From the IMG/VR virus record IMGVR_UViG_3300033146_004399, positions 62,001 through 126,000 of that record: a stretch of 64,000 nucleotides of DNA; one strand, written 5' to 3'. Positions 35,944 to 54,918 of this stretch are shown one piece after another (the first letter of the stretch is position 1; every line of letters starts with the position of its first letter). The position numbers were made by a program, and so were the translations under genes. The DNA is from a virus. Under the pieces are notes generated by a model that made no database searches, was not told the origin of the DNA, and saw nothing but the letters and a program-made list of their open reading frames with translations.

Positions 35944-35984
35944 TTGGATATAGAAGCAAATATGTTATAATTATTATAGTAATT
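35944..35984 (+). promoter_or_regulatory. Promoter plus palindrome (RNA-repair set)
   Basis: TTGGAT, 16-bp spacer, TATAAT at 35966-35971, overlapped by AATTATTATAGTAATT at 35969-35984. The same composite site precedes 45267, RtcB and the RNA ligase. The palindrome would straddle the start of transcription and is a candidate operator. Confidence 0.75.
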
Positions 35985-36011
35985 GAGGTTTTAATATATC
36001 AAGGAGTGAAT

Positions 36012-36971
36012 ATGGAGAGGAAAATATTATTTAAGGTAAAAAGTGGATCTCATATGTATGGTCTTAATACTCCCGAAAGTGATGAAGACTATATGGGTAT
36101 ATTCATGCCTACATCCGAAGATTTATTAGGTCTTAATAAATTAGAAGAAATAGATAATTCTACTAAATCATCTAAAGAAGATCGACGTAATACTAAAGAA
36201 GATGTAGATGAAAAACTTTATTCACTTAAGAAATATCTTCATCTCGCATTACAGAATAACCCTAATATAGTAGAAGTTTTATTTTCCTCTCCTGAATCAA
36301 TTATAGAAATGACTCCTGTGTTTCAGGAGTTGATAGATAATAGAGATAAAATAGTCTCACAGAAAATATATTATTCATTTACGGGATATGCATTTGCTCA
36401 AAGAAAGAAACTCATAGTTAAGAAGGAAAGATATACTTCACTTGTAGAAGGCGTTAAATTTCTAGAAACCGTGTATAAAGATAAACTTGGTAGTAAGTAT
36501 CCCATTAAAGATGAAGACGCAGATGCTTTAAACACAAGTTTAAAATATTATAAAGGAAAAAAGAATAATACTGAATCTTTCCATAGAGGTATGGATCTAG
36601 ATATGATTATAGAAAAACTCAGAGCTGAAAGAGATAGATATGGCTGGAGAGTTAATACCTCAACTTTTGAAAAATTATTTTATGATGTAAAATTTGCCTA
36701 TCATTTGATCAGATTATTAGGGCAGGGAGAACAGTTATTAGAAACTGGTAAAATTGATTTTCCAATAACTGGAAAATTAAAAGATGATATAATGCGAATA
36801 AGAAATGGTGAAGTTGAGTACGACGAATTAATGAAGATGTATGAGACTTATAATAAAAGGTGTGATGTAGCATTTGAAAATACTAAGTTGAGGAAAACTC
36901 CTGATTTCAAATGGGCTAATAAATGGTTGATTAAAATTCTTAAGGAGAGTATTATAAATGAAGAAGAGTAA
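36012..36971 (+). CDS. RlaP-like nucleotidyltransferase
   Basis: 319 residues; ATG 36012 is chosen by AAGGAG at 36001-36006. The N-terminus has the nucleotidyltransferase fold signature Gly12-Ser13 (KSGSHMYGL) followed by Asp24 and Asp26 (PESDEDYMGIF). The rest is helical (KYLHLALQNNPNIVEVLFS, YSFTGYAFAQRKKL, FEKLFYDVKFAYHLIRLL), matching the family of predicted nucleotidyltransferases found next to RNA ligases (RlaP). The acceptor substrate is unknown. It shares its promoter-operator with RtcB and the RNA ligase, which supports a place in RNA repair. Confidence 0.75.
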   Translation: MERKILFKVKSGSHMYGLNTPESDEDYMGIFMPTSEDLLGLNKLEEIDNSTKSSKEDRRNTKEDVDEKLYSLKKYLHLALQNNPNIVEVLFSSPESIIEMTPVFQELIDNRDKIVSQKIYYSFTGYAFAQRKKLIVKKERYTSLVEGVKFLETVYKDKLGSKYPIKDEDADALNTSLKYYKGKKNNTESFHRGMDLDMIIEKLRAERDRYGWRVNTSTFEKLFYDVKFAYHLIRLLGQGEQLLETGKIDFPITGKLKDDIMRIRNGEVEYDELMKMYETYNKRCDVAFENTKLRKTPDFKWANKWLIKILKESIINEEE

Positions 36972-37269
36972 AAATCTTGGCAATGTTTTCTATGATATAG
37001 ATGGAATGCTTTTGGATGATTTGATTAAATGGGCGGAAAAACAAAAAGAATTTCATCCTGAGTATGATTCTTTTAAATTAGAATTCGAAAAAGAATATCA
37101 CTACGATGGGGAATATACTGCTTTAAATCTTTATGGTCTTAGAGAAGAAACCAAAGAAGAGGAAAAATCTCGAGAAGCTATTAGGATTAAGAAATTGGAT
37201 GATGCTAAAGCAAAAAGAAAAAAGGAATGGGATAGATTGAATAAGGAGTTTGGGAATGAAGAGACATAG
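36958..37269 (+). CDS. Charged helical protein, unknown
   Basis: 103 residues overlapping the upstream gene by 14 bp. C-terminal half is a highly charged coiled coil (KEEEKSREAIRIKKLDDAKAKRKKEWDRL). Ends in TAG inside the next gene. Confidence 0.6.
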   Translation: MKKSKNLGNVFYDIDGMLLDDLIKWAEKQKEFHPEYDSFKLEFEKEYHYDGEYTALNLYGLREETKEEEKSREAIRIKKLDDAKAKRKKEWDRLNKEFGNEET

Positions 37270-37450
37270 ATTATTCACAAGAAGAGAAGTTATAGAAATA
37301 TGGTTAAAGCAGAAAGATGAAGATTTAGATACTTATGTTTGTCCTCACTGTAGAGATCTTCTGTTTAAGAAAGGTGAAACTTATTTTTGTAATAATTTTG
37401 ATTGTAGTTATTATGGAGAGACTATTGAACTAATTGGAGAAGAAGAATGA
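37256..37450 (+). CDS. Zinc-ribbon microprotein 1
   Basis: 64 residues from ATG 37256, set by AAGGAG at 37243-37248. Two Cys pairs, CPHC and CNNFDC, form a zinc ribbon (xxVCPHCRDLLFKK-x6-YFCNNFDCSYYGE). It is a tandem paralogue of the next gene. Confidence 0.65.
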   Translation: MKRHRLFTRREVIEIWLKQKDEDLDTYVCPHCRDLLFKKGETYFCNNFDCSYYGETIELIGEEE

Positions 37451-37629
37451 TAAAAGCTAAATTGCTCACATTAAGAGAATTAGGCATAGTTGATAATGAT
37501 AAGGATTTAGATAGTAAAGTCTGTCCTATGTGTAAGAATATACTTCGTAAGAAGAATGGTGTTTACTTCTGTAACAATTTAGAATGTGATGGGTATAGAG
37601 AAGGATTCGAGGAGATTAAAAATGAATAA
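37447..37629 (+). CDS. Zinc-ribbon microprotein 2
   Basis: 60 residues, ATGA-coupled. Same layout as the preceding gene (VCPMCKNILRKK...YFCNNLECDGY), clearly a tandem duplication. Small zinc ribbons of this kind may bind nucleic acid or a protein partner. Confidence 0.65.
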   Translation: MIKAKLLTLRELGIVDNDKDLDSKVCPMCKNILRKKNGVYFCNNLECDGYREGFEEIKNE

Positions 37630-37975
37630 GGGTGCAATTGCATTCATTATTATTTTAGTATTTATTCTTGGACTGGTGTTAGGTGCTTTATTTATTAGTG
37701 TGTCGCTTAGTTCTAATAGCCATAGAGTTCATACTGTCAGAATAAATGATTTCGTAAATATTAAAGTTTATACAAACTCATATTATGATTTATATAAACT
37801 TAAACGATATATATCAAATATGGAGAATTTCGTTTATACAAATGATAATATGATTATACTAACTAAAACAATACATGACAGATTTATATCTGTTGCAAAT
37901 ATTAGATTTTATAAATTTGATGGTACTTATTATGATACTTGGGGGCGATATACAAAAAACGTATCTGAAGAGTAG
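37622..37975 (+). CDS. Single-TM protein, possible TAG extension
   Basis: 117 residues from ATG 37622, set by GAGG upstream. N-terminal transmembrane helix (about 5-28) followed by a soluble beta-rich domain. It ends in TAG at 37973-37975, but the frame stays open for 38 more codons to TGA at 38090. If the suppressor tRNA acts here, a 156-residue form would result. The extension is Trp/Ile-rich and has no independent support. Confidence 0.6.
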   Translation: MNKGAIAFIIILVFILGLVLGALFISVSLSSNSHRVHTVRINDFVNIKVYTNSYYDLYKLKRYISNMENFVYTNDNMIILTKTIHDRFISVANIRFYKFDGTYYDTWGRYTKNVSEE

Positions 37976-38148
37976 AGAAGGTTAACCTCACCATCCCTAA
38001 CTCAATGGTTTATTCAAACATGGAAATGTATAAGAGGGAAGCATATTTGGATTGTGAGTGATATAGTTGAAAACGATGAAAATAATAAGTGAGTTTAAAA
38101 AATGCGAATATTGCGGAGAGTATAAACTCTTATAATATAGGTGGTAAA
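37976..38148 (+). other. Short interval with possible micro-ORFs
   Basis: Besides the possible TAG readthrough frame, it holds an 18-codon ORF (38005-38061) and a 19-codon ORF (38076-38135, MKIISEFKKCEYCGEYKLL) with a CxxC pair like the zinc ribbons upstream. None has a strong ribosome site. No promoter or terminator seen. Confidence 0.3.
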
Positions 38149-38622
38149 ATGAATAATGTAGATAAATTAGTAAAAGAAGTTGAGGCTAATGAAAAAGCGT
38201 TGAAACATACTAAAGAAGAAGTTGCTGATGCTATTATGAAAATATATACTTCTTATATATATTCTATTAATAAACAGTTACGTACCTTCTTTGGAAGAAG
38301 AAGAAAAATAGGTAAATTTACTATTAAAAGCAAATGGATAGGCGTAAATGAATATAATGATGGGTATCCTTTAATTAAGGTGTATTACAGAAAAAGACTT
38401 ATATTAAAAGTAAGTGGTAGAGAAAATGGTAATGCTAATACTTGGAAAGATGCTAAATTTAGATTACGTCACGTTTATAAACTTGATATGTCTAAAATTG
38501 TTGAACTTCAAACATTTCACAATATTTTAATTACGTTAACCCAGGAACAATTACATATAAAAAATGAAAAAATAAATAAGTTGAATAATTTTCAATTAGC
38601 GTTAAAGGAGTTGGAAGTATGA
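38149..38622 (+). CDS. Unknown basic protein
   Basis: 157 residues from ATG 38149 with AGGTGG upstream. Helical ends and a basic beta-rich centre (GRRRKIGKFTIKSKWIGVNEYNDGYPLIKVYYRKRLILKVSG). Could bind nucleic acid. Stop overlaps the next ATG. Confidence 0.6.
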   Translation: MNNVDKLVKEVEANEKALKHTKEEVADAIMKIYTSYIYSINKQLRTFFGRRRKIGKFTIKSKWIGVNEYNDGYPLIKVYYRKRLILKVSGRENGNANTWKDAKFRLRHVYKLDMSKIVELQTFHNILITLTQEQLHIKNEKINKLNNFQLALKELEV

Positions 38623-38756
38623 TATTTGCAGTTAAATATAGAAGAGCGCAAACAGCTGAATTAATTACAGCAGATAACTATAGAGGAAAATGGACCTTTC
38701 TTAGAGAATGGTTTCAATCTAACAAAGTAGCTAAAGATATACTGGAGGAAAAATGA
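38619..38756 (+). CDS. Small basic protein
   Basis: 45 residues, coupled on both sides by ATGA overlaps; own GGAG inside the upstream gene. Sequence includes YRRAQTAELI and KWTFLREWFQSNK. Not recognised. Confidence 0.55.
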   Translation: MIFAVKYRRAQTAELITADNYRGKWTFLREWFQSNKVAKDILEEK

Positions 38757-39178
38757 GTTGGACGGATAGATGGTACAATGCTGAATATGCTAATTTAACT
38801 CCTATAGGACGAGTGGTTTTAACTCTTATAATTATAGGTTTATTTTTACTCCCTTTACTAATTTTTGGACCAATAGAAATAATTGATATGGAATCAGGAC
38901 CAGTATCAATATTCCTTGGTAATTTTATGACTGTTTTAGTAGCTACAGTAGTTGTAATAATAAGTATTGTAATTATATTTTTAATTTGGATGTTTGTGTC
39001 ATGGATTTTAACTGGTCGTTCTGGTATTAATAGTTTAAACTTTTTTTTGGTAGAGAAGCCGTGGGATTTTACAGCTACTTTATTTAGAGTATTCTTTGGC
39101 TCCTATAGAAATAAGTGGCTTTTCCTTCATGAAATATTATACCCAAATAAAATAGCAAAGGAGATGCTAGATGAATAA
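38753..39178 (+). CDS. Two-helix membrane protein
   Basis: 141 residues, GGAGG ribosome site. Transmembrane helices at about 19-42 and 55-85, with a soluble C-terminus ending NKIAKEMLDE. Function unknown. Confidence 0.65.
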   Translation: MSWTDRWYNAEYANLTPIGRVVLTLIIIGLFLLPLLIFGPIEIIDMESGPVSIFLGNFMTVLVATVVVIISIVIIFLIWMFVSWILTGRSGINSLNFFLVEKPWDFTATLFRVFFGSYRNKWLFLHEILYPNKIAKEMLDE

Positions 39179-39356
39179 CTTAAGAGTTAAAAGTTTTATA
39201 GCTTCCTATTATCAAGACGGTTGGAAAGAAGGTGTTGAGATTCTTGATACGGAAATTAATGCATAGATGATAGAATACTCAAATATAATAGTAGATAGAA
39301 TAGAACATATTAAGTTTGAAACACATGAAATAGTTCATATTTGGTATACTATATGA
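39171..39356 (+). CDS. Small gene with in-frame TAG
   Basis: From ATG 39171 (GGAG upstream, overlapping the previous gene by 8 bp) the frame meets TAG at 39264-39266 after 31 codons. It continues open for 29 codons to a TGA that overlaps the next start as ATGA. The codon after TAG is ATG, so two tiny coupled ORFs are also possible. The parts read well as one helical protein (EGVEILDTEINA-[TAG]-MIEYSNIIVDRIEHI). Confidence 0.45.
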
Positions 39357-39637
39357 TTGAAAATGAAGAAGCTAAAAATAATTTATTAGGATATACTGTA
39401 ATAAATATGAATGATAGGGTCGAGGTTCGTTTAACAGATAGGGGAAGATATATATTTTCACATAGGAATGATGACTTAAATCAATTAGGCATAGCACATT
39501 TTCCACAGGATAAACCTAAAGAGGTAGACGGCTGGTTTAAATGTCAGCTATGGGAATTGATGCAAACATTCGGCCCTTATATAGGTATGGGTTTTGATAC
39601 CTTATTTGAAACAACAATAAGAATAAAGCATAATTAA
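39353..39637 (+). CDS. Unknown protein
   Basis: 94 residues, coupled to the upstream frame by ATGA. Mixed alpha/beta (RVEVRLTDRGRYIFSHRNDD, WFKCQLWELMQTFGP). Not recognised. Confidence 0.6.
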   Translation: MIENEEAKNNLLGYTVINMNDRVEVRLTDRGRYIFSHRNDDLNQLGIAHFPQDKPKEVDGWFKCQLWELMQTFGPYIGMGFDTLFETTIRIKHN

Positions 39638-39667
39638 TATAAAGAAGTATAATATGTTACATGATAT

Positions 39668-39877
39668 ATGGGTCTTTTTACTGAGATGTATGGGTTTATA
39701 TGGTTTATAGTTTTTATAATTATAATAGAGATTTTGTCCCTTCCATTTCGAGCTATATTATCCTAGATTAAAATAAATAATAAAAGACTTTTGATAGAAA
39801 GTTTAGTCAATAAAGGTTATACCCTTGAAGATATAAATAAGATAATATTAATAATGGACGGTAACGATGACGAATGA
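39668..39877 (+). CDS. Small membrane protein with in-frame TAG
   Basis: 69 codons. Codons 1-32 give a transmembrane helix (MGLFTEMYGFIWFIVFIIIIEILSL) and a short tail. TAG stands at 39764-39766. The remaining 36 codons give a soluble helical domain (INNKRLLIESLVNKGYTLEDINKIILIMDGND) ending in TGA that overlaps the next gene. There is no start codon just after the TAG, and anchor plus cytosolic helix is a coherent protein. With the window's CTA-anticodon tRNA this is one of the best candidates for amber suppression. Confidence 0.6.
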
Positions 39878-40184
39878 GAAGAAAGAGAAAATAACAAATT
39901 GTGAGTTAGACCAAACAGGTAGATTAAAAATGCTTGTATCTATCCTACTCTTCGTTTTTATTGATGTAGGGATATTCGTAGCCCTCTTCTATACTGGTAA
40001 TTCAGATTTTCCATTTATGTGGATATTATCACAATTTGTTATTGTATTTATTCTTCCCTTCTTTGTAAATTTATTTCTACTTACTAAGGTATGGGTAAAG
40101 ACTGGAAAATTTATTCCTTATCTTGACATTTTTGATAAAATTGAATTTATAAAAAAATATCTTTTCGGAGACTGGAGAAAATAA
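39867..40184 (+). CDS. Two-helix membrane protein
   Basis: 105 residues. Helices at about 22-42 and 52-75, short basic C-terminus. Abuts the J-domain gene start directly. Function unknown. Confidence 0.6.
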   Translation: MTNEKKEKITNCELDQTGRLKMLVSILLFVFIDVGIFVALFYTGNSDFPFMWILSQFVIVFILPFFVNLFLLTKVWVKTGKFIPYLDIFDKIEFIKKYLFGDWRK

Positions 40185-41102
40185 TTGAATCCTCATAAAA
40201 TTTTAGGTGTTGAACCCGGTGCTAACGCAAACGACATAAAGAAAGCTTATAAGTCTTTAGCTAAAAAATATCATCCGGACGCTAACGGTGGTGATGACAC
40301 TAAATTCAAAGAAATAAGTCATGCATATGAAATATTAACCGATCCTAAAGCTAAAGCTCAATATGAGTCAGAACAATTTAAAAAAACTGCTAATTCTTTT
40401 GGCGGAATGGGTGGTATGGATTTTGGGGATATATTTAGAAGTTTTTCTCAAGGTTCTAACGGTTTTTCTCAAGGGCCTGGCGGGTTTAGATTTACTTATG
40501 GTGATACTAAAAGGAAAATACACGGAAAAGATATCCAAGTTAGAATTTTTATCACTCTTGAAGAGGTTTTTAACGGTAAAACCATTGAAATGGAAATACA
40601 GCGTAACGAGAGAATAAATTCTGAGAAGAGAGAAGTAAGAAGCAGGAAGATAAAACTTAATATACCAAAAGGTGTTGAAAACGGAAAAGTTTTACATCTC
40701 CGTGGTGAAGGACATCAAGGATTAAATGGTGGACGAGATGGTAACGTAAATATAATAATTCAAACTAAACCACATGATTATTTCTGGAAGAAAAAAGATG
40801 GTCTTTATACTCAAGTTGAGATTTTCTTTACTCAAGCTATTCTCGGGGCAACTGTTGAATTTCTTAATTTAAATAGTGAAATAGTAGAATTGGTAATACC
40901 TCCAGGAACGCAGCCAGGAGATATAATAGAATTGAGAGGTGAAGGCGTGCCTTTTACGGGAAGTGATACTCGAGGATATCTTAAAGTTATTATAAAAGTT
41001 AAACTTCCAACTCAATTAGAATCTTACCAAAAAGAAAATTTAAGAATATTCCAGGAGCAATTCAATATAAAACCTATTGCTTCCTCAGTTAAAATAAAAT
41101 GA
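40185..41102 (+). CDS. DnaJ/CbpA-type co-chaperone
   Basis: 305 residues from TTG, with GGAG 8 bp upstream. J-domain at 1-65 with His30-Pro-Asp32, then a Gly/Phe-rich linker (FGGMGGMDFGDIFRSFSQGSNGF). Two C-terminal substrate-binding beta domains (residues about 105-290; VRIFITLEEVFNGKTIEMEI, LHLRGEGHQG, VIPPGTQPGDIIELRGEGVP) follow without the zinc-finger of DnaJ. That is the class B (CbpA) architecture. It should stimulate host DnaK. A full-length J-protein is rare in phages; it may aid virion assembly or redirect host DnaK. Confidence 0.9.
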   Translation: MNPHKILGVEPGANANDIKKAYKSLAKKYHPDANGGDDTKFKEISHAYEILTDPKAKAQYESEQFKKTANSFGGMGGMDFGDIFRSFSQGSNGFSQGPGGFRFTYGDTKRKIHGKDIQVRIFITLEEVFNGKTIEMEIQRNERINSEKREVRSRKIKLNIPKGVENGKVLHLRGEGHQGLNGGRDGNVNIIIQTKPHDYFWKKKDGLYTQVEIFFTQAILGATVEFLNLNSEIVELVIPPGTQPGDIIELRGEGVPFTGSDTRGYLKVIIKVKLPTQLESYQKENLRIFQEQFNIKPIASSVKIK

Positions 41103-41227
41103 GAAAATTAGTTGATAATTATATTGTTTTAAATAAATCTTTCAAAGAAGAATTTTATAAACTTATTCAAGACTTCATAAATAGAAATATACTACTCAAC
41201 AATATATTTATATATTTCATCTTTTAA
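41099..41227 (+). CDS. Small hypothetical protein
   Basis: 42 codons, ATGA-coupled to the J-protein gene. Helical and hydrophobic at the C-terminus (NRNILLNNIFIYFIF). Too short to classify. Confidence 0.4.
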   Translation: MRKLVDNYIVLNKSFKEEFYKLIQDFINRNILLNNIFIYFIF

Positions 41228-41270
41228 AAATTGTGCAGCAAACTGATAAAAAGGTAGTTAAATATTTATA

Positions 41271-41408
41271 ATGCAAGGCGTGGAAAAGTATACTCATGAA
41301 ACTAAAAATTTAACTATACAAGATTTTATAAAAGCGGGTGAAATAATTGATAGGAAAGTATTAAAAGAATTAAGTGCTGAACTTGCTAAATTTATGCTTC
41401 AAAGATAA
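41271..41408 (+). CDS. Small helical protein
   Basis: 45 residues; AAAAAGGTAG lies 14 bp upstream. Sequence TIQDFIKAGEIIDRKVLKELSAELAKFML is amphipathic. Its end overlaps the convergent minus-strand gene by 17 bp. Confidence 0.45.
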   Translation: MQGVEKYTHETKNLTIQDFIKAGEIIDRKVLKELSAELAKFMLQR

Positions 41409-41631
41409 ATCTAATCCAGTCTACATTAGGTTCAACTTCAACTTTTAGTTCGCTAAAGTAGAAAGGTATTGGTGATTCAGATTCATCATACCATACAGCA
41501 GTAACATCATCTTGGAAGTAAACATCGTCTAATTTATGTTTTCCAATAACAACACGTTTCGCCCACTTCCATGTCCTAACATAATCTAAACCAGCGTCCT
41601 GTAAGAGATCAAAAAATTCGTTATAGTCCAT
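41392..41631 (-). CDS. Unknown small acidic protein
   Basis: 79 residues, last of a three-gene minus-strand operon (42267 to 41392) with overlapping ends. Beta-rich, acidic (DDVYFQDDVTAVWYDESES). Not recognised. Confidence 0.6.
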   Translation of the reverse strand: MDYNEFFDLLQDAGLDYVRTWKWAKRVVIGKHKLDDVYFQDDVTAVWYDESESPIPFYFSELKVEVEPNVDWIRFIFEA

Positions 41632-42007
41632 TTGTTGTTATCCACATATTAAAGTCTTCATATTCATAAGCATCAAACTTTCTCATCTCTTCATACTTAA
41701 ATCCTATTAAATCTAAAATCCATATAAGAACTGAGGCATAAGTATCATCAACTGCAATCACACTAAAGTCACTGTCACTTTTTTGTGTTACATTTAATGA
41801 ATATGCATTTTTTAAATTAGTTAATCTTTTCATTCCCTTTGCTCCGTCCATATCCATACTATATTTAAAAAAAGATGCTCCCCAAGAGGCTGGAAGCCAA
41901 TGGTCATAATCATAAGGATCAAAATCTCCAGAGAAATAATTTTTTAAAAGGGTGGAAAATTCATCATTTATGAATAATTCTTTTATTGCTCTTTTACTTA
42001 CTTTCAT
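41621..42007 (-). CDS. Unknown acidic protein
   Basis: 128 residues, overlapped on both sides in the minus-strand operon. Asp/Tyr-rich (SGDFDPYDYDHWLPASWGASFFKYSMDMDG). No family recognised; small acidic phage proteins often inhibit host enzymes, but no evidence here. Confidence 0.6.
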   Translation of the reverse strand: MKVSKRAIKELFINDEFSTLLKNYFSGDFDPYDYDHWLPASWGASFFKYSMDMDGAKGMKRLTNLKNAYSLNVTQKSDSDFSVIAVDDTYASVLIWILDLIGFKYEEMRKFDAYEYEDFNMWITTNGL

Positions 42008-42267
42008 CTAAATATTGCTCCTATAGCCAACTTCAAAAGTTTTTTACTAATTTCTTCCATATTAATCTTCTTTACATTATGTATATCAGGTATAAAATTT
42101 ACAGGAAAAACATCTGTTCCAGCTCCAGCTTGTGAGTGGGAAATAAGGATAATATCGTTTTCACTATATTTAAAATAATATAAATCCCAAGTATCAACAT
42201 GTTCTAATTCACCCCATTGGTGTTGTTCTGTCTGGTCATCTTTTCCATAAAATATTTCTACTTTCAT
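42004..42267 (-). CDS. Unknown acidic protein
   Basis: 87 residues, first gene of the minus-strand trio. An AAGATAA motif lies just upstream at 42272-42278. Beta pattern with LEHVDTWDLYYFKYSENDIILISHS. Not recognised. Confidence 0.6.
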   Translation of the reverse strand: MKVEIFYGKDDQTEQHQWGELEHVDTWDLYYFKYSENDIILISHSQAGAGTDVFPVNFIPDIHNVKKINMEEISKKLLKLAIGAIFR

Positions 42268-42271
42268 AATA

Positions 42272-42296
42272 TTATCTTACTTACTATACAAGATAA
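42272..42296. promoter_or_regulatory. Divergent pair of AAGATAA motifs
   Basis: Minus-strand copy at 42272-42278 and plus-strand copy at 42290-42296, back to back in a 32-bp gap between divergent genes. The arrangement strongly suggests the motif is a promoter element. Confidence 0.5.
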
Positions 42297-42299
42297 ATT

Positions 42300-42548
42300 A
42301 TGTTATTTAAACTATATAAATATACTACTAAGGGCGGACATATATACTATGATATCCCCATATATCAAGAAGGGGATAAGTATATATATTATGAATATGA
42401 TGTTAATGGGAAGGTGTGGCTTGGGCCGCATAGTGTTTTTATTCGCAGATGGTTTGGTCCAGAGACAGATAAAGAGCCTTATACTTTTAATATCATTCCT
42501 GCAGAGGTATTAAAAGATTTAATTATGAAATTATTTAAGGAAACCTAG
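42300..42548 (+). CDS. Unknown protein, tandem paralogue A
   Basis: 82 residues. Tyr/Gly-rich (YIYYEYDVNGKVWLGPHS), resembling the next gene (YVAYDVEKAIWGIYAG). It ends in TAG at 42546, directly followed by the in-frame ATG of that gene, so suppression would fuse the two. Confidence 0.55.
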   Translation: MLFKLYKYTTKGGHIYYDIPIYQEGDKYIYYEYDVNGKVWLGPHSVFIRRWFGPETDKEPYTFNIIPAEVLKDLIMKLFKET

Positions 42549-42824
42549 ATGAACAAGTTATATTATGAAACAGGAAAAAATATTTATGGTGCTTGGGAAC
42601 AATATTCTTACCCTGTTTTAAAAGCTCCTAAAAGAGGTCCAAATTATGTGGTATATGTTGCGTATGATGTAGAAAAAGCTATTTGGGGCATATATGCAGG
42701 TGATGATTTAGATTACTCAGATGAAGTAGAATTTGATGATATTAAAGATGCGTTTGCAAAATCTAATTTAATTGAAAAAATATTTAGTGATGAATTTATT
42801 GAGATAATAAATAAATGGCAATAA
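42549..42824 (+). CDS. Unknown protein, tandem paralogue B
   Basis: 91 residues. See the preceding gene for the shared segment. C-terminus acidic and helical (DYSDEVEFDDIKDAFAKS). AAGGAA upstream inside paralogue A. Confidence 0.55.
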   Translation: MNKLYYETGKNIYGAWEQYSYPVLKAPKRGPNYVVYVAYDVEKAIWGIYAGDDLDYSDEVEFDDIKDAFAKSNLIEKIFSDEFIEIINKWQ

Positions 42825-43216: not shown

Positions 43217-43267
43217 AGAAGCTTATATAAAATTAAAAAATCAGTCAGGGTGGGAATTCAAAAAGAG
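43158..43267 (+). repeat. Exact 55-bp tandem duplication
   Basis: Copies at 43158-43212 and 43213-43267 are identical. Copy 1 is the 3' end of the HNH gene up to its stop; copy 2 is a non-translated duplicate after the stop. Both begin ATGAAGAAGC, and the short match ATGAA recurs at 43268, suggesting slippage or a nick-repair origin. Confidence 0.95.
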
Positions 43268-43328
43268 ATGAATAATTTAATAAAAGAGGTATTTGAACTC
43301 GAAAAATTCATTAAATGGAGTTTATCAT

Positions 43329-44203: not shown

Positions 44204-44205
44204 AC

Positions 44206-46438: not shown

Positions 46439-46440
46439 CT

Positions 46441-47098: not shown

Positions 47099-47116
47099 TT
47101 ATATAAAAAGGTAGTT

Positions 47117-47387: not shown

Positions 47388-47398
47388 AGAGGTAAAAA

Positions 47399-48676
47399 AT
47401 GGATGTTATAGGAAAATACGGAACAGCAATTATATATAACGATGATGTAGAACAGGAAGCTATATCGCAAGTTTATGCTCTTATGAATGATTCTATGATT
47501 GAGGGATCTACAGTTCGTATAATGCCGGATATTCATGCAGGAGCTGGTTGTGTTATTGGATACACTGCTATGCTTACAGATAAAGTTGTTCCTCAGCTCG
47601 TAGGAGTTGACATTTCGTGTGGGCTCTTGGGATTTAACTTGGGTCATAAAAAAGATATAAAGTTGAAATTTGATAAACTTGATAAATTTATTAGAAAAAA
47701 TATTCCTGCTGGTCAAACAGTAAATGATGAATTTGATGAAAATTTAATAAATAATATTTTTTCTTATATGAATGTTAAGTTTAAAACTTGGGATAAATAT
47801 AAAAAAGAATTAGAAAAAGCTTGTAATAGAACACATCAAGATTTTGATTATGTGTTACGATCATTAGGTTCCATGGGTGGAGGAAACCATTATTTAGAAC
47901 TTGGTGAAAGTAATGAAGGTGAATTGTGGATGATAGTCCATTCAGGGAGCAGAAACTTTGGTTTGAAAACAGCCCTCCACCACCAGAAGATAGCTGAAGA
48001 TCAAACTCTCACTATGTCTAAAGATGATTATGACGCTAAAGTTGAAGAGATTAGAAAGACTAAGAAAGGGAAAGGCATTGAAGTTGCTATACAGAAGTTG
48101 AGAAAACAATCTAAAGTTCGGAAGCATAAAAGAACTGGTCTTGAATACCTTGAAGGTGAAAAAGCAGAAGATTATTATAAAGATATGTATATTGCTCAAA
48201 TTTATGCAAGTTTAAGCCGTCATATTATGATTTATAAAATTGTTAAATTTTATGGGTTGAAATTTGATAAAGATAAATTGCTAGAAACAGTTCATAACTA
48301 TATAAATTTTAAGGATAGAGTATTAAGGAAAGGAGCTGTATCTGCTCATAAAGACGAGATGTTATTTATTCCTATGAATATGAAAACAGGAACGCTTTTG
48401 TGCCGAGGCAAAGGAAATGAAGCGTGGAATTGTTCCGCACCGCACGGTGCGGGTCGCAAAATATCTCGTACTAAAGCTAAAGCTTCCATAAGATTAGAAG
48501 ATTATCAAAAGGTTATGAGAGATGCTAAAGTATGGACAACATGTGTAAATAAATCAACTTTGGATGAAGCACCTGCTGCATATAAAAAACCAGAGGATAT
48601 TATTAAATACATAGAACCAACTGTTGACATTATTACTATGATAAAACCTTTGTACAATTATAAAGCAAATTCATAA
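47399..48676 (+). CDS. rtcB: RNA ligase RtcB
   Basis: 425 residues, full length. RtcB joins 2',3'-cyclic phosphate or 3'-phosphate RNA ends to 5'-OH ends using GTP and manganese. Conserved motifs are visible: MPDIHAGAGCVIGYTA, GVDISCGLLG with the metal Cys, GSMGGGNHYLELG, IVHSGSRNFG, and APHGAGRKISRTKAK with the guanylylated His near residue 350. AGAGG precedes the ATG. It shares its promoter with the other RNA-repair genes. Likely job: resealing host or phage tRNAs cut by anticodon nucleases. Confidence 0.95.
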   Translation: MDVIGKYGTAIIYNDDVEQEAISQVYALMNDSMIEGSTVRIMPDIHAGAGCVIGYTAMLTDKVVPQLVGVDISCGLLGFNLGHKKDIKLKFDKLDKFIRKNIPAGQTVNDEFDENLINNIFSYMNVKFKTWDKYKKELEKACNRTHQDFDYVLRSLGSMGGGNHYLELGESNEGELWMIVHSGSRNFGLKTALHHQKIAEDQTLTMSKDDYDAKVEEIRKTKKGKGIEVAIQKLRKQSKVRKHKRTGLEYLEGEKAEDYYKDMYIAQIYASLSRHIMIYKIVKFYGLKFDKDKLLETVHNYINFKDRVLRKGAVSAHKDEMLFIPMNMKTGTLLCRGKGNEAWNCSAPHGAGRKISRTKAKASIRLEDYQKVMRDAKVWTTCVNKSTLDEAPAAYKKPEDIIKYIEPTVDIITMIKPLYNYKANS

Positions 48677-48717
48677 TTTCCTTAGCCAAATTTATGAATA
48701 ACTCCAACAGGTTATAA

Positions 48718-48724
48718 AGATAAC
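48718..48724 (+). promoter_or_regulatory. Candidate phage promoter (AAGATAA motif)
   Basis: TATAAAGATAACTTC, 19 bp before the GIY-YIG gene and the only conspicuous element in the gap after rtcB. Confidence 0.35.
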
Positions 48725-48742
48725 TTCACAAAGGAGTTATTT

Positions 48743-49609
48743 ATGAATTATTATGTTTATTGTTATATTGATGGAAAAAAGGGAAATACGATTTATAAAA
48801 ATTATGAATTTAACGGAGAACCTTTTTATATTGGAATGGGATCTAATGACAGATATTTAAACCACTTAGTAAATGCTAAAAAAGAAAATTATAATTTTTT
48901 GCCAAAACATTATAAAATAAGAAAAATGTTTAAAGAAAGTAATGAGCCTATAATAATAAAATTATTAGAAAATATTTCAAAAGAAGAAGCTATTAAAGCT
49001 GAAATATTTTTTATAAATTTAATAGGAAGACGAGATCTTCAACAAGGTCCTCTATTTAATCTTACAAAAGGTGGAGAAGGAGGTAATACAGGAATTCCAT
49101 GGAACAAAGGAATGAAATATAAAAATAAAAAAAATTCTGTAATGTTTAGTGGCCCTGGCAACCCGTTTTATGGTAAACATCATACGAACGAAACAAAGAA
49201 AAAAATAAGTGATTTCCATAAAGGTAATCAATACGCAAAAGGGGCAGTAAGGTCTGAAGAAACAAGAAAGAAAATAAGTGAAGCTCGTAAAGGTAAATAT
49301 TTAGGAGAAGATAGTTTTTGGTATGGTAAACACCACACCGAAGAAACAAGAAAGAAAATAGGTGAAGCTAATAAAGGTAAATTAAAGGGTGATAAAAATC
49401 CTTCTAAACGCTTAGACGTGAGAGAAAAGATTAGCCTGGCAATATCAAAAACATATAAAATAATAAATCCAGATGGGGTTGAAATTATATATAAAGGTAA
49501 TTTACGAACATTTTGCGAAAAAAGAAATTTAGTTCCTCATTTATTACGTAGTGTTGCAAAAGGAAGAAGAAAAGAATATAAAGGATGGAAATGTGAGTAT
49601 GTTGAGTAG
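48743..49609 (+). CDS. GIY-YIG homing endonuclease with NUMOD3 motifs
   Basis: 288 residues, AAAGGAG ribosome site. N-terminal GIY-YIG domain: YYVYCYIDG followed by EPFYIGMGSNDRYLNHL, catalytic Glu in EAIKAEIFFINLIGR. C-terminal DNA-binding NUMOD3 repeats (NPFYGKHHTNETKKKISDFHKG, RSEETRKKISEARKG, FWYGKHHTEETRKKIGEANKG) and a final wHTH-like segment (LRTFCEKRNLVPHLLRSVAKGRRKEYKGWKC). It is inserted between rtcB and unknown genes. Confidence 0.9.
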   Translation: MNYYVYCYIDGKKGNTIYKNYEFNGEPFYIGMGSNDRYLNHLVNAKKENYNFLPKHYKIRKMFKESNEPIIIKLLENISKEEAIKAEIFFINLIGRRDLQQGPLFNLTKGGEGGNTGIPWNKGMKYKNKKNSVMFSGPGNPFYGKHHTNETKKKISDFHKGNQYAKGAVRSEETRKKISEARKGKYLGEDSFWYGKHHTEETRKKIGEANKGKLKGDKNPSKRLDVREKISLAISKTYKIINPDGVEIIYKGNLRTFCEKRNLVPHLLRSVAKGRRKEYKGWKCEYVE

Positions 49610-49677
49610 AATAAAAAAAGTATTTCTATGAGATTATGGCGTTTAAATAATGCATAGTTTATTGAGGGAAGGGTGAG

Positions 49678-49887
49678 ATGACTAGAAGCGATATTCTATT
49701 AGATACAAAAGACACTTTAAAAGAAATGGATGAAGCAATTTGTTCTCCTAAAGCTAAAAATCATGTGGAAGAAATGGCTGATATATTGGAAGATTTTTGG
49801 ACTCTGACGCTAACAATCGAGAAGGATGAAGACTTCAAACCCCTAGGACAGCACATGAGAAAAATATTTTATAGAGAGAACAAATGA
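49678..49887 (+). CDS. Unknown acidic protein
   Basis: 69 residues with GGGAAGGG upstream. Helical and acidic (DILLDTKDTLKEMDEAICSP, EEMADILEDFWTLT). ATGA-coupled to the next. Just upstream, a 17-codon frame starting MRLWRLNNA carries another in-frame TAG and resembles a truncated MKLW-family start. Confidence 0.6.
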   Translation: MTRSDILLDTKDTLKEMDEAICSPKAKNHVEEMADILEDFWTLTLTIEKDEDFKPLGQHMRKIFYRENK

Positions 49888-50210
49888 CTGGACTAGACAT
49901 CTTCTATAATGCCTTTGAAGAGTCCTGGTTCGAGTTTAAACATCCAGCAAGAGTGAGCATTTCCTGGGTTAAAGTTATTGATTTCAGTCCGAAATATAGC
50001 GGTGATGTTGGTTCAAACATTAGAGTCATCTCTGTTTATAAAGATGGTAAGATTGGTCCTCGTAAAAATTCAATTGATAAAATAAAAAATATCATCAATG
50101 CTACAGAAAACCTTTCATACTATAAATTACTTAAAAATTGCACTGTCATAGAAGATGAAGAGAAAATTAATGAATTAACACTCATAGAAGTTAAGCTGAG
50201 ACTTCTATGA
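49884..50210 (+). CDS. Unknown protein
   Basis: 108 residues, coupled by ATGA on both sides. Alternating strands (VSISWVKVIDFSPKY, NIRVISVYKDGKIG) and C-terminal helices. Not recognised. Confidence 0.6.
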   Translation: MTGLDIFYNAFEESWFEFKHPARVSISWVKVIDFSPKYSGDVGSNIRVISVYKDGKIGPRKNSIDKIKNIINATENLSYYKLLKNCTVIEDEEKINELTLIEVKLRLL

Positions 50211-50518
50211 CTATAATTGAACACACCATCCAAGAGATGATGGGGGAATGGTATTACTATATAATATGGGAAGACACACAATACGAGTATACTAATTATA
50301 TATTGGTTGATAGTGATGCATACTCATTAAGTAGTGTAAAAGTTTATATTGTTAGTATCGCCTCCTCCAAAGGCATCCTAAGTAATATTAGGTGGAGTGG
50401 AGTTTATGCTGATGTAAAGTTGGCAAAACTTTTAGAGTATGAACGGCTCGAAGATGGAGATACAAAAGATAAATTGATTGCATCATATACTAAAAAACTA
50501 TTACAGCAAAGGATATAA
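50207..50518 (+). CDS. Unknown protein, paralogue of 51020 gene
   Basis: 103 residues. N-terminus TIIEHTIQEMMGEWYYYI matches NIIECIIDMMLNNWYIKI of the gene at 51020, and both end in a helix followed by a short basic tail. Overlaps the Hpt gene start by one base. Confidence 0.6.
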   Translation: MTIIEHTIQEMMGEWYYYIIWEDTQYEYTNYILVDSDAYSLSSVKVYIVSIASSKGILSNIRWSGVYADVKLAKLLEYERLEDGDTKDKLIASYTKKLLQQRI

Positions 50519-50814
50519 TGGATATTGAAAAATTAGCATAAGATATTGGACTTGATGCCACTACTTATAAAGCCCTACTTGAGATGTTTATTGAAGATAC
50601 TTTTAGAAGTTTAGTAACGATAAAAAAAGCCTTAAAGACAAATAACCATGAGTTGATATCATTTGAAATACACTTAATTAAGGGTGCAGCGTTAAATTTA
50701 TCGTTGGATAATATAGTTTAAATTATAGAGCTTGATGAAATTGAAACGTTAATTAAGAAATGTGAAATTGAGTTACATGATATGGAGGTAGAATGTGAGA
50801 AAAACACTATGTGA
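50518..50814 (+). pseudogene. Hpt phosphotransfer gene with two in-frame TAA
   Basis: 98 codons with a clear histidine-phosphotransfer domain. The helix bearing the phospho-His reads FEIHLIKGAALNLSLDNIV (His at codon 52), matching the Hpt consensus AHxLKGxAxNLG; flanking helices (LDATTYKALLEMFIEDTFRSLVTIKKAL, ELDEIETLIKKCEIEL) fit too. TAA stands at codon 8 (50539-50541) and codon 68 (50719-50721), where relatives often have polar residues. There is no frameshift. TAA is the main stop codon here, so this is either a recent pseudogene, readthrough, or recoding. A partner receiver exists at 5221-5574. Confidence 0.7.
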
Positions 50815-51007
50815 AGGATGTAAATTTTATTCTTTAGAAAAGAAGAAAATTAGATTAAATGCAAAATTTATAGAAGAAGAATTGACTGAATATACTTTTA
50901 AGGTATGTAGTGCTTTTTATCCTCCCATATATATTAATGGAAATTCATCAGAATGTAATTTCTATAAAGAAAAAAAGACGAGGAAAAATATTAATAGTAA
51001 AAGCTAG
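50795..51007 (+). CDS. Cys-rich small protein
   Basis: 70 residues from GTG 50795, GGAGG 6 bp upstream, overlapping the Hpt gene. Four cysteines: CEGC at the start, then C...C (KVCSAFYPP, SSECNFYKE), reminiscent of the modules at 45703-46438. It ends in TAG; the frame then stays open into the next gene's ATG. Confidence 0.6.
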   Translation: MRKTLCEGCKFYSLEKKKIRLNAKFIEEELTEYTFKVCSAFYPPIYINGNSSECNFYKEKKTRKNINSKS

Positions 51008-51019
51008 GATGTTATTATT

Positions 51020-51313
51020 ATGAATATAATTGAATGTATTATAGATATGATGTTAAACAATTGGTATATAAAAATTGATAAATACAATAGAATTAATGCT
51101 ATTAAATTATTAGATAAAACTATATATTATGAAGACAGTTTAGAGTTTTATACTATTATTTTTTATGAAAGTGATAATTTTAAAGATTTTAAAGACGGCT
51201 ATTATAGTATGAAAAAAATAAAAGATATATTAAAATATATCCCAATAAGTGAAGCTAATTTGAATGAAAAAGTGTTAATAACATTTGCTAAAGAATTATT
51301 AAGTGAAACCTAA
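51020..51313 (+). CDS. Unknown protein, paralogue of 50207 gene
   Basis: 97 residues. See the gene at 50207 for the shared N-terminus. In frame with the upstream TAG-terminated gene. Confidence 0.6.
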   Translation: MNIIECIIDMMLNNWYIKIDKYNRINAIKLLDKTIYYEDSLEFYTIIFYESDNFKDFKDGYYSMKKIKDILKYIPISEANLNEKVLITFAKELLSET

Positions 51314-51342
51314 AATATTATTGTGAAAGTGAGAAAAAAGAA

Positions 51343-51564
51343 ATGAATGAAGGAAATTATCAAGGTGTAAAGCTACCACCAACTACGCCAAAACCACCTA
51401 TTATAGTTAGAGGCAGAAAAACGGATACATATAAACAAGCTTTTATTGATGGTCTTATTTGTTATGCGTGGTGGAAGGACGGCGTTCAATATGTAGGAAT
51501 GGCAGGAACTACTTTAAAGGAAGCTATAAAAGAAGTAGAAGCATCATGGAATTATCATGGGTAA
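51343..51564 (+). CDS. Unknown small protein
   Basis: 73 residues. Proline-rich N-terminus (KLPPTTPKPPIIVRGRK) and a beta-hairpin-helix C-terminus (YAWWKDGVQYVGMAGTTLKEAIKEVEASW). Not recognised. Confidence 0.6.
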   Translation: MNEGNYQGVKLPPTTPKPPIIVRGRKTDTYKQAFIDGLICYAWWKDGVQYVGMAGTTLKEAIKEVEASWNYHG

Positions 51565-51615
51565 ACAAAGATTTTACAGAAGTTTTATGATTAAGAAGCA
51601 TAGTTATGTTTATAT

Positions 51616-51687
51616 GTTGTTATGGTCTAATGGTATGATGCGGGATTCTAAATCCTTGCGGTTTGGGTTCGATTCCCAATAACGACA
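51616..51687 (+). tRNA. Suppressor tRNA, anticodon CTA
   Basis: 72-nt cloverleaf read by hand. Acceptor stem GTTGTTA/TAACGAC (7 bp, one G-T), T8, three-base-pair D stem with loop TAATGGTAT, anticodon stem with one wobble and one terminal mismatch, loop TTCTAAA with T33 and anticodon CTA at 51648-51650. Five-base variable loop, T stem TTGGG/CCCAA (perfect) with loop TTCGATT, discriminator A, no encoded CCA. CTA pairs with the stop codon UAG. The amino acid identity cannot be told from sequence; glutamine is the usual choice in phages. It lies 2 bp before a small gene and has no visible promoter of its own. Confidence 0.85.
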
Positions 51688-51689
51688 AT

Positions 51690-51953
51690 ATGATTACTAG
51701 AGAAATTATAGAATTAACAAGGGAGTGGCTTGGGGATGAAGGTATAACTGCATTTACTAAGATAGTGTTAGGAAGTGATTTAATTTACTTCCATTTTACA
51801 GCAGGTATGGACGTGAGAAATTTCCTTAGAGATACTACTTTATGTAAAAATTGGAACCCTCATGACTTTGATAATAACTGGCAAAAAATAATAATGAAAG
51901 CGATAGCAGAAGATTATACAGAAGAGGAGCTTATTAATGATAGAGATAGCTAG
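51690..51953 (+). CDS. Unknown protein after tRNA
   Basis: 87 residues from ATG 51690, 2 bp after the tRNA. The longer frame from 51663 runs through the tRNA and is not credible. Helical start (TREIIELTREWLGDEG). Ends in TAG within the next gene. Confidence 0.55.
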   Translation: MITREIIELTREWLGDEGITAFTKIVLGSDLIYFHFTAGMDVRNFLRDTTLCKNWNPHDFDNNWQKIIMKAIAEDYTEEELINDRDS

Positions 51954-52134
51954 AGAATGGTATAAGAAACACACACGTCATATTGATGACTTGATGACTT
52001 CAAGAATGGAAGCATTGTATCTTAGACAAATCGATAAGGTTGGGTTTGAACCTCCTGAAGAGGATATGAAAAACCCTGAACGTTGGAAAGGTGATCATTG
52101 GCTGTGGTTTTCTAAAGAATACGGAATGGAGTAA
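51937..52134 (+). CDS. Unknown small protein
   Basis: 65 residues, GAGGAG upstream. Helical, Trp-rich C-terminus (ERWKGDHWLWFSKEYGME). Overlaps the neighbours at both ends (17 bp, TAATG). Confidence 0.6.
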   Translation: MIEIAREWYKKHTRHIDDLMTSRMEALYLRQIDKVGFEPPEEDMKNPERWKGDHWLWFSKEYGME

Positions 52135-52499
52135 TGGAAATTATAAGACGGCAAAATTTTAATCTTGAATTTTATGAAATTCAAGATGGAATTAATACTC
52201 TCCGTATAGGACTTGCTGGTTTTAGAAAAGGCGAACCAGGCGCTTCAATGTTCTATCCTGAAAGTGGCGATGATTATATATTGGTCATTTATGATAATGG
52301 TTGGTATAAATTTCATATTAATGAGTTTACACATGAAGCAGGTTTAGAATATATCTCTGAAAAATTACATTGCTCCCTAGGTGATGCTAAAATTATTCGT
52401 GCTTTCATCAATGATTTATTTGAGCAAGATTCTCTTCTCCCACTTCTAACTGATGGAGCCACAGATTTCCATCTTAAAAATCCATATTTAATGAGGTAA
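52134..52499 (+). CDS. Unknown protein
   Basis: 121 residues, TAATG-coupled. Beta-rich N-terminal half (FEIQDG-like strands, YILVIYDNGWYKFHI), helical C-terminal half. Not recognised. Confidence 0.6.
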   Translation: MEIIRRQNFNLEFYEIQDGINTLRIGLAGFRKGEPGASMFYPESGDDYILVIYDNGWYKFHINEFTHEAGLEYISEKLHCSLGDAKIIRAFINDLFEQDSLLPLLTDGATDFHLKNPYLMR

Positions 52500-52501
52500 T
52501 A

Positions 52502-53083
52502 ATGTCTACACCAAATTTTCCTAAATTATGTATTGATGAGGATATTTCTATATTATCAAATCAAAAAAAAGACAAAATTGTTGATATTAGAGAACAACTT
52601 TGGCTGGAAGAACAACGGCAAAAGCCTGAAATAAGTAAAGAACAGATTCTTAGAAATAGAGAATACGAGCTAGATAGGAGAATTGAAAAAATACAAAAAG
52701 ATAAAGAAAGTTTTATAGAAAAATTTATTATATTATATTATTATTATTTGAAATTGAAAAATATAGATAAATATAAAGGCTTTTATAAAATTAAACTGGG
52801 TTCTTACATTATGAAAAAATATATAGTTTTCGGAAATGCGGAAAACTCAAACCATAGATTGGTAATATATAATAATAATAAGAAAATACTATTTAAAATA
52901 AAAGATAAATGGTATAATTTGTTTGATAATTTTGAAATAATAAAATTTGAATCTGAAGCAATATTTGAATTAGAGGAATTTTACAATTTACTTATTGATG
53001 TGATAAACGAAGAATTAAGAAAGAAGGAAGAAATACTAGATAATATAGATTTAACTAATATATCTTTAAAGGAGTTAATATGA
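52502..53083 (+). CDS. Unknown coiled-coil protein
   Basis: 193 residues, GAGG upstream. Charged coiled coil at about 25-70 (REQLWLEEQRQKPEISKEQI, RRIEKIQKDKESFIEKF), a tyrosine-rich strand region and an acidic helical C-terminus. ATGA-coupled to the MBL gene. Confidence 0.6.
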   Translation: MSTPNFPKLCIDEDISILSNQKKDKIVDIREQLWLEEQRQKPEISKEQILRNREYELDRRIEKIQKDKESFIEKFIILYYYYLKLKNIDKYKGFYKIKLGSYIMKKYIVFGNAENSNHRLVIYNNNKKILFKIKDKWYNLFDNFEIIKFESEAIFELEEFYNLLIDVINEELRKKEEILDNIDLTNISLKELI

Positions 53084-53997
53084 TAATAAAAATTATAGGG
53101 GCTGGCAATGCCTTTTCATACAAAAATTATAATCAATCATTCTTATTAGAGGAAGGCGGAAAGAAAATGCTCATTGATATAGGAGCAAGAGTACCTTTAG
53201 CTCTCCATGATGCAAATATCCCGCTTTCAGATATTGATGCAGTTTATATTTCACATGCACACGCAGATCATATTGGTGGTCTTGAAGAAATGGCATTTAT
53301 GAGATATGATTGGATGAATAAACCTCGTAAGTGGGACGATTATAAATATTTGAAGAATCCTAGAGATTATATGTCAGGGAATGAAAAAAAATATGCACCT
53401 AAATTAATAGCAAATGAACTTTTGCTTAAAGAGCTGTGGGATCATTCTTTGAAGGGCGGTTTAGATTCTATGGAAGGATTTGATTCTTCTTTAGAAACAT
53501 TTTTTGAACCAATCCCAGTTAAAGCCAATGTCCCGTTCACTTGGCAGGGATGGAAGTTTGATCTTATTCAACAAATTCATATAATGACAGGAAGTATAAT
53601 TAAATATACATTCGGCCTCCTCATGTCTAAGAAGGGACATAAAACAATATATTTCACAACTGATAGTCAGCATTGCTCTCCAAGACAGATTGAGACATTC
53701 TACAAAAAGGCTGATATTATATTTCAGGATTGTGAATGCGTCGGAGTTGATACATCTACAAAAGAATATAAATTCGGTTCTGGAGTACATGCAAATTATG
53801 CTCAGCTTGCTGGTTACTCATCTGCTAATTCTGTACGTCTAGACGATGATATTAAGGCCAAGATGTGGTTATCTCATTATCAAGATTTTGTATCAGAAGG
53901 AAAAGATGGTTTTGGCAATAATTGTGATTGGAGTAATCTTGCGCATAGTGATGGGTTTAATGGATTTGTCGCAGTTGGGCAGGAATTTGAAATTTAA
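53080..53997 (+). CDS. Metallo-beta-lactamase-fold hydrolase
   Basis: 305 residues, AAGGAG upstream. Metal motif His59-x-His61-x-Asp63-His64 (ISHAHADHIGG), Asp in YFTTDSQH and DCE, late His in WLSHYQD. N-terminal GAGNAFS and LLIDIG strands fit the MBL core as in RNase Z and phosphodiesterases. Substrate unknown. MBL enzymes in phages include cyclic-nucleotide hydrolases that defeat Pycsar defence, so such a role is worth testing, as is RNA processing given the repair genes nearby. Confidence 0.8.
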   Translation: MIIKIIGAGNAFSYKNYNQSFLLEEGGKKMLIDIGARVPLALHDANIPLSDIDAVYISHAHADHIGGLEEMAFMRYDWMNKPRKWDDYKYLKNPRDYMSGNEKKYAPKLIANELLLKELWDHSLKGGLDSMEGFDSSLETFFEPIPVKANVPFTWQGWKFDLIQQIHIMTGSIIKYTFGLLMSKKGHKTIYFTTDSQHCSPRQIETFYKKADIIFQDCECVGVDTSTKEYKFGSGVHANYAQLAGYSSANSVRLDDDIKAKMWLSHYQDFVSEGKDGFGNNCDWSNLAHSDGFNGFVAVGQEFEI

Positions 53998-54023
53998 TTA
54001 AACCTTGGGAGAGGAGAGGAGAT

Positions 54024-54275
54024 ATGATTAAGAAGACTGCACTATGGATTTTATGGACATTTATTAAAGGATTCAAAATAATTGGTATATCTATACTTAT
54101 GCTGGGATTTATGGCAGGTTTAATTGGTATAATTATTATATTAGTATGGTGGGGGATTAAAAATAAAGAATATTTAATTCTTTCAAGTATTATTGTTAAT
54201 TGCATATTTATATATGGATTAATATATAGAGTTGTATGGAATTTAAAGTTACCGGAACCATTAAGGAGACTATGA
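54024..54275 (+). CDS. Two-helix membrane protein
   Basis: 83 residues, GAGGAGAGGAGA upstream. Hydrophobic helices at about 20-45 and 49-71. Function unknown. ATGA-coupled to the next frame. Confidence 0.6.
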   Translation: MIKKTALWILWTFIKGFKIIGISILMLGFMAGLIGIIIILVWWGIKNKEYLILSSIIVNCIFIYGLIYRVVWNLKLPEPLRRL

Positions 54276-54422
54276 ATAAGGAAGAATTAATAAGATTCAT
54301 CCTTAAAGAAAAAGAAACTTTAGTCAAGATTGAAAAAAAAAAATGGATTAATCGAAGAGAAAAAAGAAGTTGCTAAAAAGAGATTGTATTTAAAATTGAA
54401 GGATGAATATGAGGAAAGATAA
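54272..54422 (+). pseudogene. Coiled-coil gene with A11 frameshift
   Basis: From ATG 54272 the frame reads MNKEELIRFILKEKETLVKIEK, enters a run of eleven A at 54343-54353 and stops early. With ten A it would continue NGLIEEKKEVAKKRLYLKLKDEYEER to TAA at 54420, a coherent 49-residue coiled coil. An A11 tract is a classic site of polymerase slippage, so it may be expressed by slippage; a sequencing error is equally possible. Confidence 0.5.
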
Positions 54423-54753
54423 AAAATTAATATCTCTTCGAAGGGAGAAAAATTATTTAGATATTATAGATGATGTTACAAACAATTATGTTAGATTAAT
54501 ACCAGATAAAGTAGATTTAAATATGGGTGTTGAATTTTATAAAACTAAATCTGTAATAGAGAACGGGCAATTTCTTTTAGAAGTTAAAGATGATTATCTT
54601 GAAATAATTAATGGTAAAAGTAATTATTCTATTAGGCTTATTGTTGAAGGGCCTGGAAGAAGTGTAACTGTTAAATTTTGTAAACCTGGTAAAAGAGGTG
54701 GATTTTCTACAGTATACATTTCACAAAAAAATGCAAAAATAAAGGAGAAATAA
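54409..54753 (+). CDS. Unknown basic protein
   Basis: 114 residues from ATG 54409 (GAAGG upstream); ATG 54403 is an alternative. Beta-rich, ending with GRSVTVKFCKPGKRGGFSTVYIS. Followed by the ribbon-helix-helix gene at 2 bp. Not recognised. Confidence 0.6.
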   Translation: MRKDKKLISLRREKNYLDIIDDVTNNYVRLIPDKVDLNMGVEFYKTKSVIENGQFLLEVKDDYLEIINGKSNYSIRLIVEGPGRSVTVKFCKPGKRGGFSTVYISQKNAKIKEK

Positions 54754-54754
54754 A

Positions 54755-54904
54755 ATGGAAACTATAGAAATTGACCTCTCATTAGAAGATTATTTTACTC
54801 TTAATGAGATGGCTCGAGAGAAAGAACAATTGTTAGGTGGTTTTATAAACGATATAATCAAAGATTATATTAAGACTTTGGAAAAGGATAAACCTGTAGT
54901 ATAA
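54755..54904 (+). CDS. Ribbon-helix-helix regulator
   Basis: 49 residues, AAAGGAG upstream. One N-terminal strand (TIEIDLS) followed by two helices (EDYFTLNEMAREK and GGFINDIIKDYIKTLEK) gives the ribbon-helix-helix pattern of small dimeric DNA-binding proteins such as Arc and antitoxins. Its 3' end contains the promoter-palindrome of the RNA ligase gene, so it is well placed to regulate that set or itself. Target site unproven. Confidence 0.7.
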   Translation: METIEIDLSLEDYFTLNEMAREKEQLLGGFINDIIKDYIKTLEKDKPVV

Positions 54905-54918
54905 TTATTATAGTAATT
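54878..54918 (+). promoter_or_regulatory. Promoter plus palindrome before RNA ligase
   Basis: TTGGAA, 16-bp spacer, TATAAT at 54900-54905, overlapped by AATTATTATAGTAATT at 54903-54918, identical to the palindrome at 35969-35984. Confidence 0.75.

Follow-up and report, generated by a model that had tools for sequence, protein, structure and literature searches.

To our knowledge, the control of RNA-repair genes in phages has been little studied. Cluster K mycobacteriophages carry start-associated sequences (SAS and ESAS), in which an asymmetric 13-mer at the ribosome-binding site is joined in the ESAS by an upstream 17-bp inverted repeat with a spacer (PMC3203893). T4-type phages carry mobile promoter cassettes (PeSLs), near-identical early promoters combined with a terminator-like stem-loop at many gene boundaries (as cited in PMC4503421). 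In bacteria, the rtcBA operon is controlled by RtcR, an activator of this single operon that senses damaged tRNA (PMC7790460, PMC9650030). Finally, RtcB, Rnl-type ligases and RlaP have been reported to occur together in single genomes of large phages (PMC7824862).

The promoter element described here resembles each of these systems in part. As with SAS and ESAS, some of the non-structural genes have a short repeat close to their starts, always in one orientation, and the likeness extends to an extra inverted-repeat feature on about half of the copies and to RtcB, which subcluster K1 phages encode too (PMC3203893). However, the extra feature in our phage is a compact 16-bp palindrome overlapping the -10 element and +1 of a sigma70-type promoter, and the asymmetric SAS GGGATAGGAGCCC, expected 3-7 bp before the start codon, is absent from the four leaders concerned. 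As with PeSLs, similar promoters stand at many gene boundaries, but here the promoter bears an operator and its flanks are no longer alike, whereas PeSLs, as PMC4503421 presents them, pair the promoter with a stem-loop. A terminator scan of window 33000-52900, a range that ends before the fourth site, gave 8 sites against 5.2 expected; a predicted terminator lies at 47269-47287, just before the third site. As in bacteria with RtcR, an RtcB gene is under transcriptional control, but through a sigma70-type promoter and with several operons per element. The large-phage survey concerned gene content; here separate repair operons carry a common promoter-operator element.

The window is a 64,000-base stretch (bases 62,001-126,000) of an uncultured phage record, G000, of 179,366 bp and 30% GC. 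A megablast search with window positions 45000-56700 against 50,697 phage records returned no match, and hence no near relative. When the promoter class consensus was searched in 2.9 million viral contigs, only two further records emerged, both from metagenome 3300033146: G001 (IMGVR 3300033146_007470), a fragment of 53.9 kb, and G002 (IMGVR 3300033146_003955), of 158.8 kb. G000, G001 and G002 make up the 392 kb of our three-phage comparison, and few homologous proteins are common to them.

The promoter class was collected with a profile trained on the composite sites described below. Its consensus is TTTGGACAAT-N6-AAATATGGTATAATTA (also given as ATATGGTATAAT), and it reads as a strict sigma70-type promoter with an extended -10 element placed along rightward gene blocks: TTTGG-N18-TATAAT precedes genes, and TGn is present in three of the four palindrome-bearing copies. 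In G000, thirteen sites exceed 19 bits, the next best falls below 10 bits, and a first-order genome model expects 0.3 sites above 14 bits. All thirteen lie on the plus strand, twelve with an obvious gene immediately downstream. Four carry the palindrome (hereafter, marked promoters) and nine do not. The window holds the four marked promoters and five unmarked ones, exactly the number of further promoters that the initial annotation had counted, and the other four unmarked members lie outside it. The relatives contribute about nine class promoters (G001) and seven (G002).

Several of these promoters have features of separate interest. The promoter before the lipoprotein-like gene (window 23208-23290) shares a near-identical leader, including a short inverted repeat, with G002 27434, although the genes that follow differ. 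Beyond the window, a class promoter at 105532-105660 (window numbering) has a leader with a strong inverted repeat, AGTAATTATTCAAAAG/CTTTTGAATAATACT. Class promoters at 48601, 50729 and 53010 of G001 head genes that read as nicotinamide-nucleotide adenylyltransferase-, nicotinamidase- and NAD synthetase-like, so NAD salvage in that phage is possibly under the same promoter class. In G002, a complete eukaryote-type topoisomerase IB (L118:16072-17799, PF02919 and PF01028, ~1e-64) lies behind a class promoter. Lipoprotein-type signal sequences behind some promoters suggest spirochaetes as a possible host group.

Composite sites, in which promoter and palindrome are fused, stand at 35943-35983, 45208-45248, 47346-47386 and 54877-54917 without a mismatch. 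The initial annotation had correctly recognized all four, with coordinates that began one base late because the first T of TTTGG was omitted. TTTGG-N18-TATAATTAYTRTAGTAAT occurs without mismatch exactly four times in the window, against 0.02 expected per window from shuffled sequences, none of which gave four. A search of the whole G000 record allowing up to 3 mismatches, the genome-wide check that had been proposed, found these four sites and no fifth. Site 3 ends in AATA instead of AATT. The features discussed here are collected in the table.

Table. Coordinates of the promoter elements, genes and candidate proteins (window numbering unless stated otherwise).
Feature	Position	Strand	Details
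Composite site 1	35943-35984	+	TTTGG, N18, TATAAT at 35966-35971, palindrome AATTATTATAGTAATT at 35969-35984
RlaP-like nucleotidyltransferase (site 1)	36012-36971	+	PF10127 1.3e-23, phrog_388 1.8e-70
Composite site 2	45208-45249	+	palindrome AATTACTGTAGTAATT at 45234-45249
149-aa orphan (site 2)	45267-45716	+	no Pfam/PHROG match, no IMG/VR relative
Composite site 3	47346-47387	+	palindrome AATTACTATAGTAATA at 47372-47387
RtcB-type RNA ligase (site 3)	47399-48676	+	PF01139 2.8e-59, phrog_1075 1.3e-120
Composite site 4	54877-54918	+	palindrome AATTATTATAGTAATT at 54903-54918
RNA ligase (site 4)	54936-55565	+	PF09414 1.8e-27
Unmarked class promoter	23208-23236	+	before lipoprotein-like gene (23287)
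Unmarked class promoter	34123-34151	+	before HD-domain gene (34171)
Unmarked class promoter, CTTGG variant	35487-35515	+	before 84-aa gene
Unmarked class promoter	46440-46468	+	before 87-aa gene
Unmarked class promoter	55863-55891	+	before 81-aa gene
GCATATTTA copies	25981, 32852, 45219, 54202; beyond window end 65117, 80250, 82209, 107676
TAAGATAAT copies	677, 2784, 14838, 16640; also -8571, -21569, -57438
Late-sigma-factor homologue (gp55-like)	26-679		phrog_234, E 1.2e-5
Arc/RHH-like small protein, weak candidate	genome 126,780-126,872 (outside window)	-	RHH_4, E 0.0016
Arc-like small protein, weak candidate	genome 150,381 (outside window)	+	phrog_3180, E 1e-4

The four genes directly downstream are those named in the initial annotation, and Pfam and PHROG matches place three of the four among RNA-repair types. 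The site 4 RNA ligase is about 48% identical to phage RNA ligases. The composite is absent from the 63 loci that carry relatives of this ligase. No close relatives of the RtcB or the 149-aa orphan were found in IMG/VR, and a single-sequence fold of the orphan (pLDDT 34) is meaningless. The long region downstream of the RtcB promoter includes a protein (window 53080-53997) that exceeds the Pfam cut-off for anti-Pycsar Apyc1 (PF23023, 6.8e-23). An apparent amber suppressor tRNA with anticodon CUA lies at window 51615-51688, and G002 has one too (L113:13503-13575).

Two other promoter-like words occur in these genomes. The word GCATATTTA is found mostly 30-50 bp before gene starts: the three phages have 11 copies near starts, where shuffled words give 0.3, and the spacer of site 2 contains a copy (45219-45227). 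The word TAAGATAAT lies 12-50 bp before genes that include very large open reading frames (11 copies near starts, where shuffled words give 1.9 and at most 6), and it may be the late promoter that the gp55-like sigma factor serves. The T4-type late promoter TATAAATAC is not enriched near gene starts.

The initial annotation described the palindrome as AATTA-N6-TAATT. In this bare form it is ordinary, with 34 matches at up to one mismatch against 30 expected in so AT-rich a window, which is the level of chance. The 16-mer AATTAYTRTAGTAATT in a fixed promoter register is unusual. With at most one mismatch, the consensus AATTACTATAGTAATT has seven copies in the 392 kb of the three records, and all seven sit in the same register on class promoters, whereas 0.17 near-perfect copies are expected in the largest record. 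Three of the seven belong to the relatives (G001 16548 and 19968, G002 72058). The palindrome therefore covers the core of several promoters and is absent elsewhere.

Sequence comparison of marked and unmarked promoters separates the palindrome from its surroundings. Over the 13 bases 3′ of the -10 element, pairwise identity is 89% among the seven marked promoters and 38% among the 20 unmarked ones, whereas the spacers are equally diverged in both sets (49% and 53%) and the leader 3′ of the palindrome is 54% identical among the marked promoters. Because the spacers have diverged while the operator is conserved, the palindrome appears to be a constrained element rather than the product of recent duplication. 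The shared promoter-operator that had been claimed is thus well supported, by the strictness of the class, by the common register of all seven palindromes in three phages and by the diverged spacers. From these patterns, the 16-base palindrome is probably the docking site of a regulatory protein, and most likely a repressor operator over the -10 element and +1.

The explanation that we consider rather probable is that 4 of the 13 members of a sigma70-type class carry a 16-bp operator through which four operons are jointly switched. The operator, with consensus AATTACTATAGTAATT, overlaps the 3′ half of the -10 hexamer and extends to about +7, so that its axis falls where transcription is expected to begin. 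There, a dimeric DNA-binding protein that recognizes the TAGTAATT half-site would block RNA polymerase. The operons headed by the RlaP-like, 149-aa, RtcB and RNA ligase genes, each with the genes behind, would then be switched together. We infer the binding of a protein, repression as its effect and the phage origin of that protein.

A different account of the same bases deserves weight, though we judge it unlikely. The right arm could be significant as the transcript's 5′ end (AGUAAUUG...), where it would act on promoter escape, RNA stability or translation, with the palindrome as a by-product. Indeed, the right arm hardly varies (96% pairwise identity), most of the left arm is -10 sequence, and in six of seven sites the right arm is followed by a G and then by purine-rich bases of a ribosome-binding stretch. 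Part of the left arm belongs to the promoter itself (TATAATTA, which is frequent in unmarked promoters), and therefore the extra information resides only in the right arm and its symmetry. It is because of this near-invariant right arm and largely promoter-derived left arm that a signal at the RNA 5′ end keeps some probability. The three mismatches at palindrome position 6 are confined to the left arm; this pattern, like a near-invariant right arm, would equally be expected of an asymmetric signal. Against it stands the symmetry itself: all seven copies have 7-8 of 8 palindromic pairs on one fixed axis, 1.9% of random genomic stretches do so when 14 axes are allowed, and the copy at G001 16574 is a perfect palindrome. 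Moreover, the expected start lies inside the palindrome, and therefore both arms cannot be in the RNA, which makes recognition at the DNA level the simpler reading.

What the operator controls is a separate question. The initial annotation saw an RNA-repair regulon, which in its strict form would mean that the operator switches on RlaP, RtcB, the RNA ligase and an unrecognised fourth repair factor, for example upon tRNA cutting by host anticodon nucleases. Within G000 this idea has a basis, as repair genes lead three of the four marked operons and none of the nine unmarked ones (chance 10/715 = 0.014, post hoc), and cooperation of RlaP with RNA ligases has been reported for large phages (PMC7824862). 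In the relatives, however, none of the three marked operons starts with a repair gene; their first genes are a radical-SAM gene (PF04055, 6e-14), an 82-aa unknown and an unknown with an apparently interrupted reading frame. Conversely, a CCA-adding enzyme gene of G002 (137850, 136294; its identity read from sequence), apparently split by a homing-endonuclease-like insert, lies behind class promoters without the palindrome. When the three phages are pooled, the repair excess weakens to about p = 0.04, again post hoc. In addition, the marked promoters head multi-gene operons whose further genes are mostly small and unknown and include one for a homing endonuclease. A tblastn search with the window's RtcB, RNA ligase and RlaP found no homologue in G002 or in the G001 fragment. 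Because of the relatives' marked genes and the unmarked CCA-adding enzyme, the operator is not tied to RNA repair across the group, and we hold a dedicated repair regulon to be improbable. Still less likely is a damage-response version, in which tRNA or RNA damage would release one regulator and open the dispersed operons through the operator of their common promoter, with the 149-aa orphan as a new repair factor beside RlaP, RtcB and the RNA ligase. The regulon is instead an operon subset that differs between phages, with RNA repair over-represented in G000 only.

If a phage-encoded repressor reads the operator, its gene is not conspicuous. A ribbon-helix-helix (RHH) protein had been proposed for this role, but none was found in the window, and PF01402 (RHH_1) gives nothing in the whole record. 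No clear repressor family appears among the 25 commonest families listed for 58 proteins near the sites and for 129 others. Two weak Arc/RHH-like candidates (see the table) are unlinked to the composite sites, and G002 has an RHH_4-like stretch at 136,385. The window also encodes a PC4-type (p15) ssDNA-binding transcription cofactor (32882-33091, PF02229, 6.8e-18).

That no linked phage regulator was found, together with the resemblance of the promoter to a host sigma70 type, would suit a host repressor whose operator the phage has adopted, such that the phage operons follow the host's own regulon. We find this quite doubtful, as a search of one genome for each of 84,980 bacterial and archaeal species gave a single match to the composite, inside the tatA coding region of a Thermovibrio MAG and taken as chance, although the host may lie outside that collection. 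Operator matches at other IMG/VR loci (L078-L093, L120-L126, L128 and L129) were likewise rejected, as they lack the TTTGG promoter class. The proposal that the marked promoters are copied cassettes without regulatory meaning, spread by recombination like PeSLs, draws on the shuffling of repeated operon-head promoters in T4-like phages (as named in PMC4503421) but is largely refuted and very improbable, since recent copying would have brought the flanks along, whereas the spacers and flanks of marked promoters have drifted apart to the same extent as those of unmarked ones and the operator is retained in three distantly related phages.

Our preferred reading thus remains an operator placed on a subset of promoters. 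Judged by its pattern of conservation, this promoter-operator is real and probably defines a small phage regulon that includes three RNA-repair operons in G000. The finding gives this group of large uncultured phages a clear promoter and operator code that can be tested, together with a list of operons that are likely co-regulated, RNA repair included. If a link to tRNA damage were established, it would be a strong finding, but the relatives favor a more general role, in which RNA repair is not the dedicated purpose of this regulatory switch.
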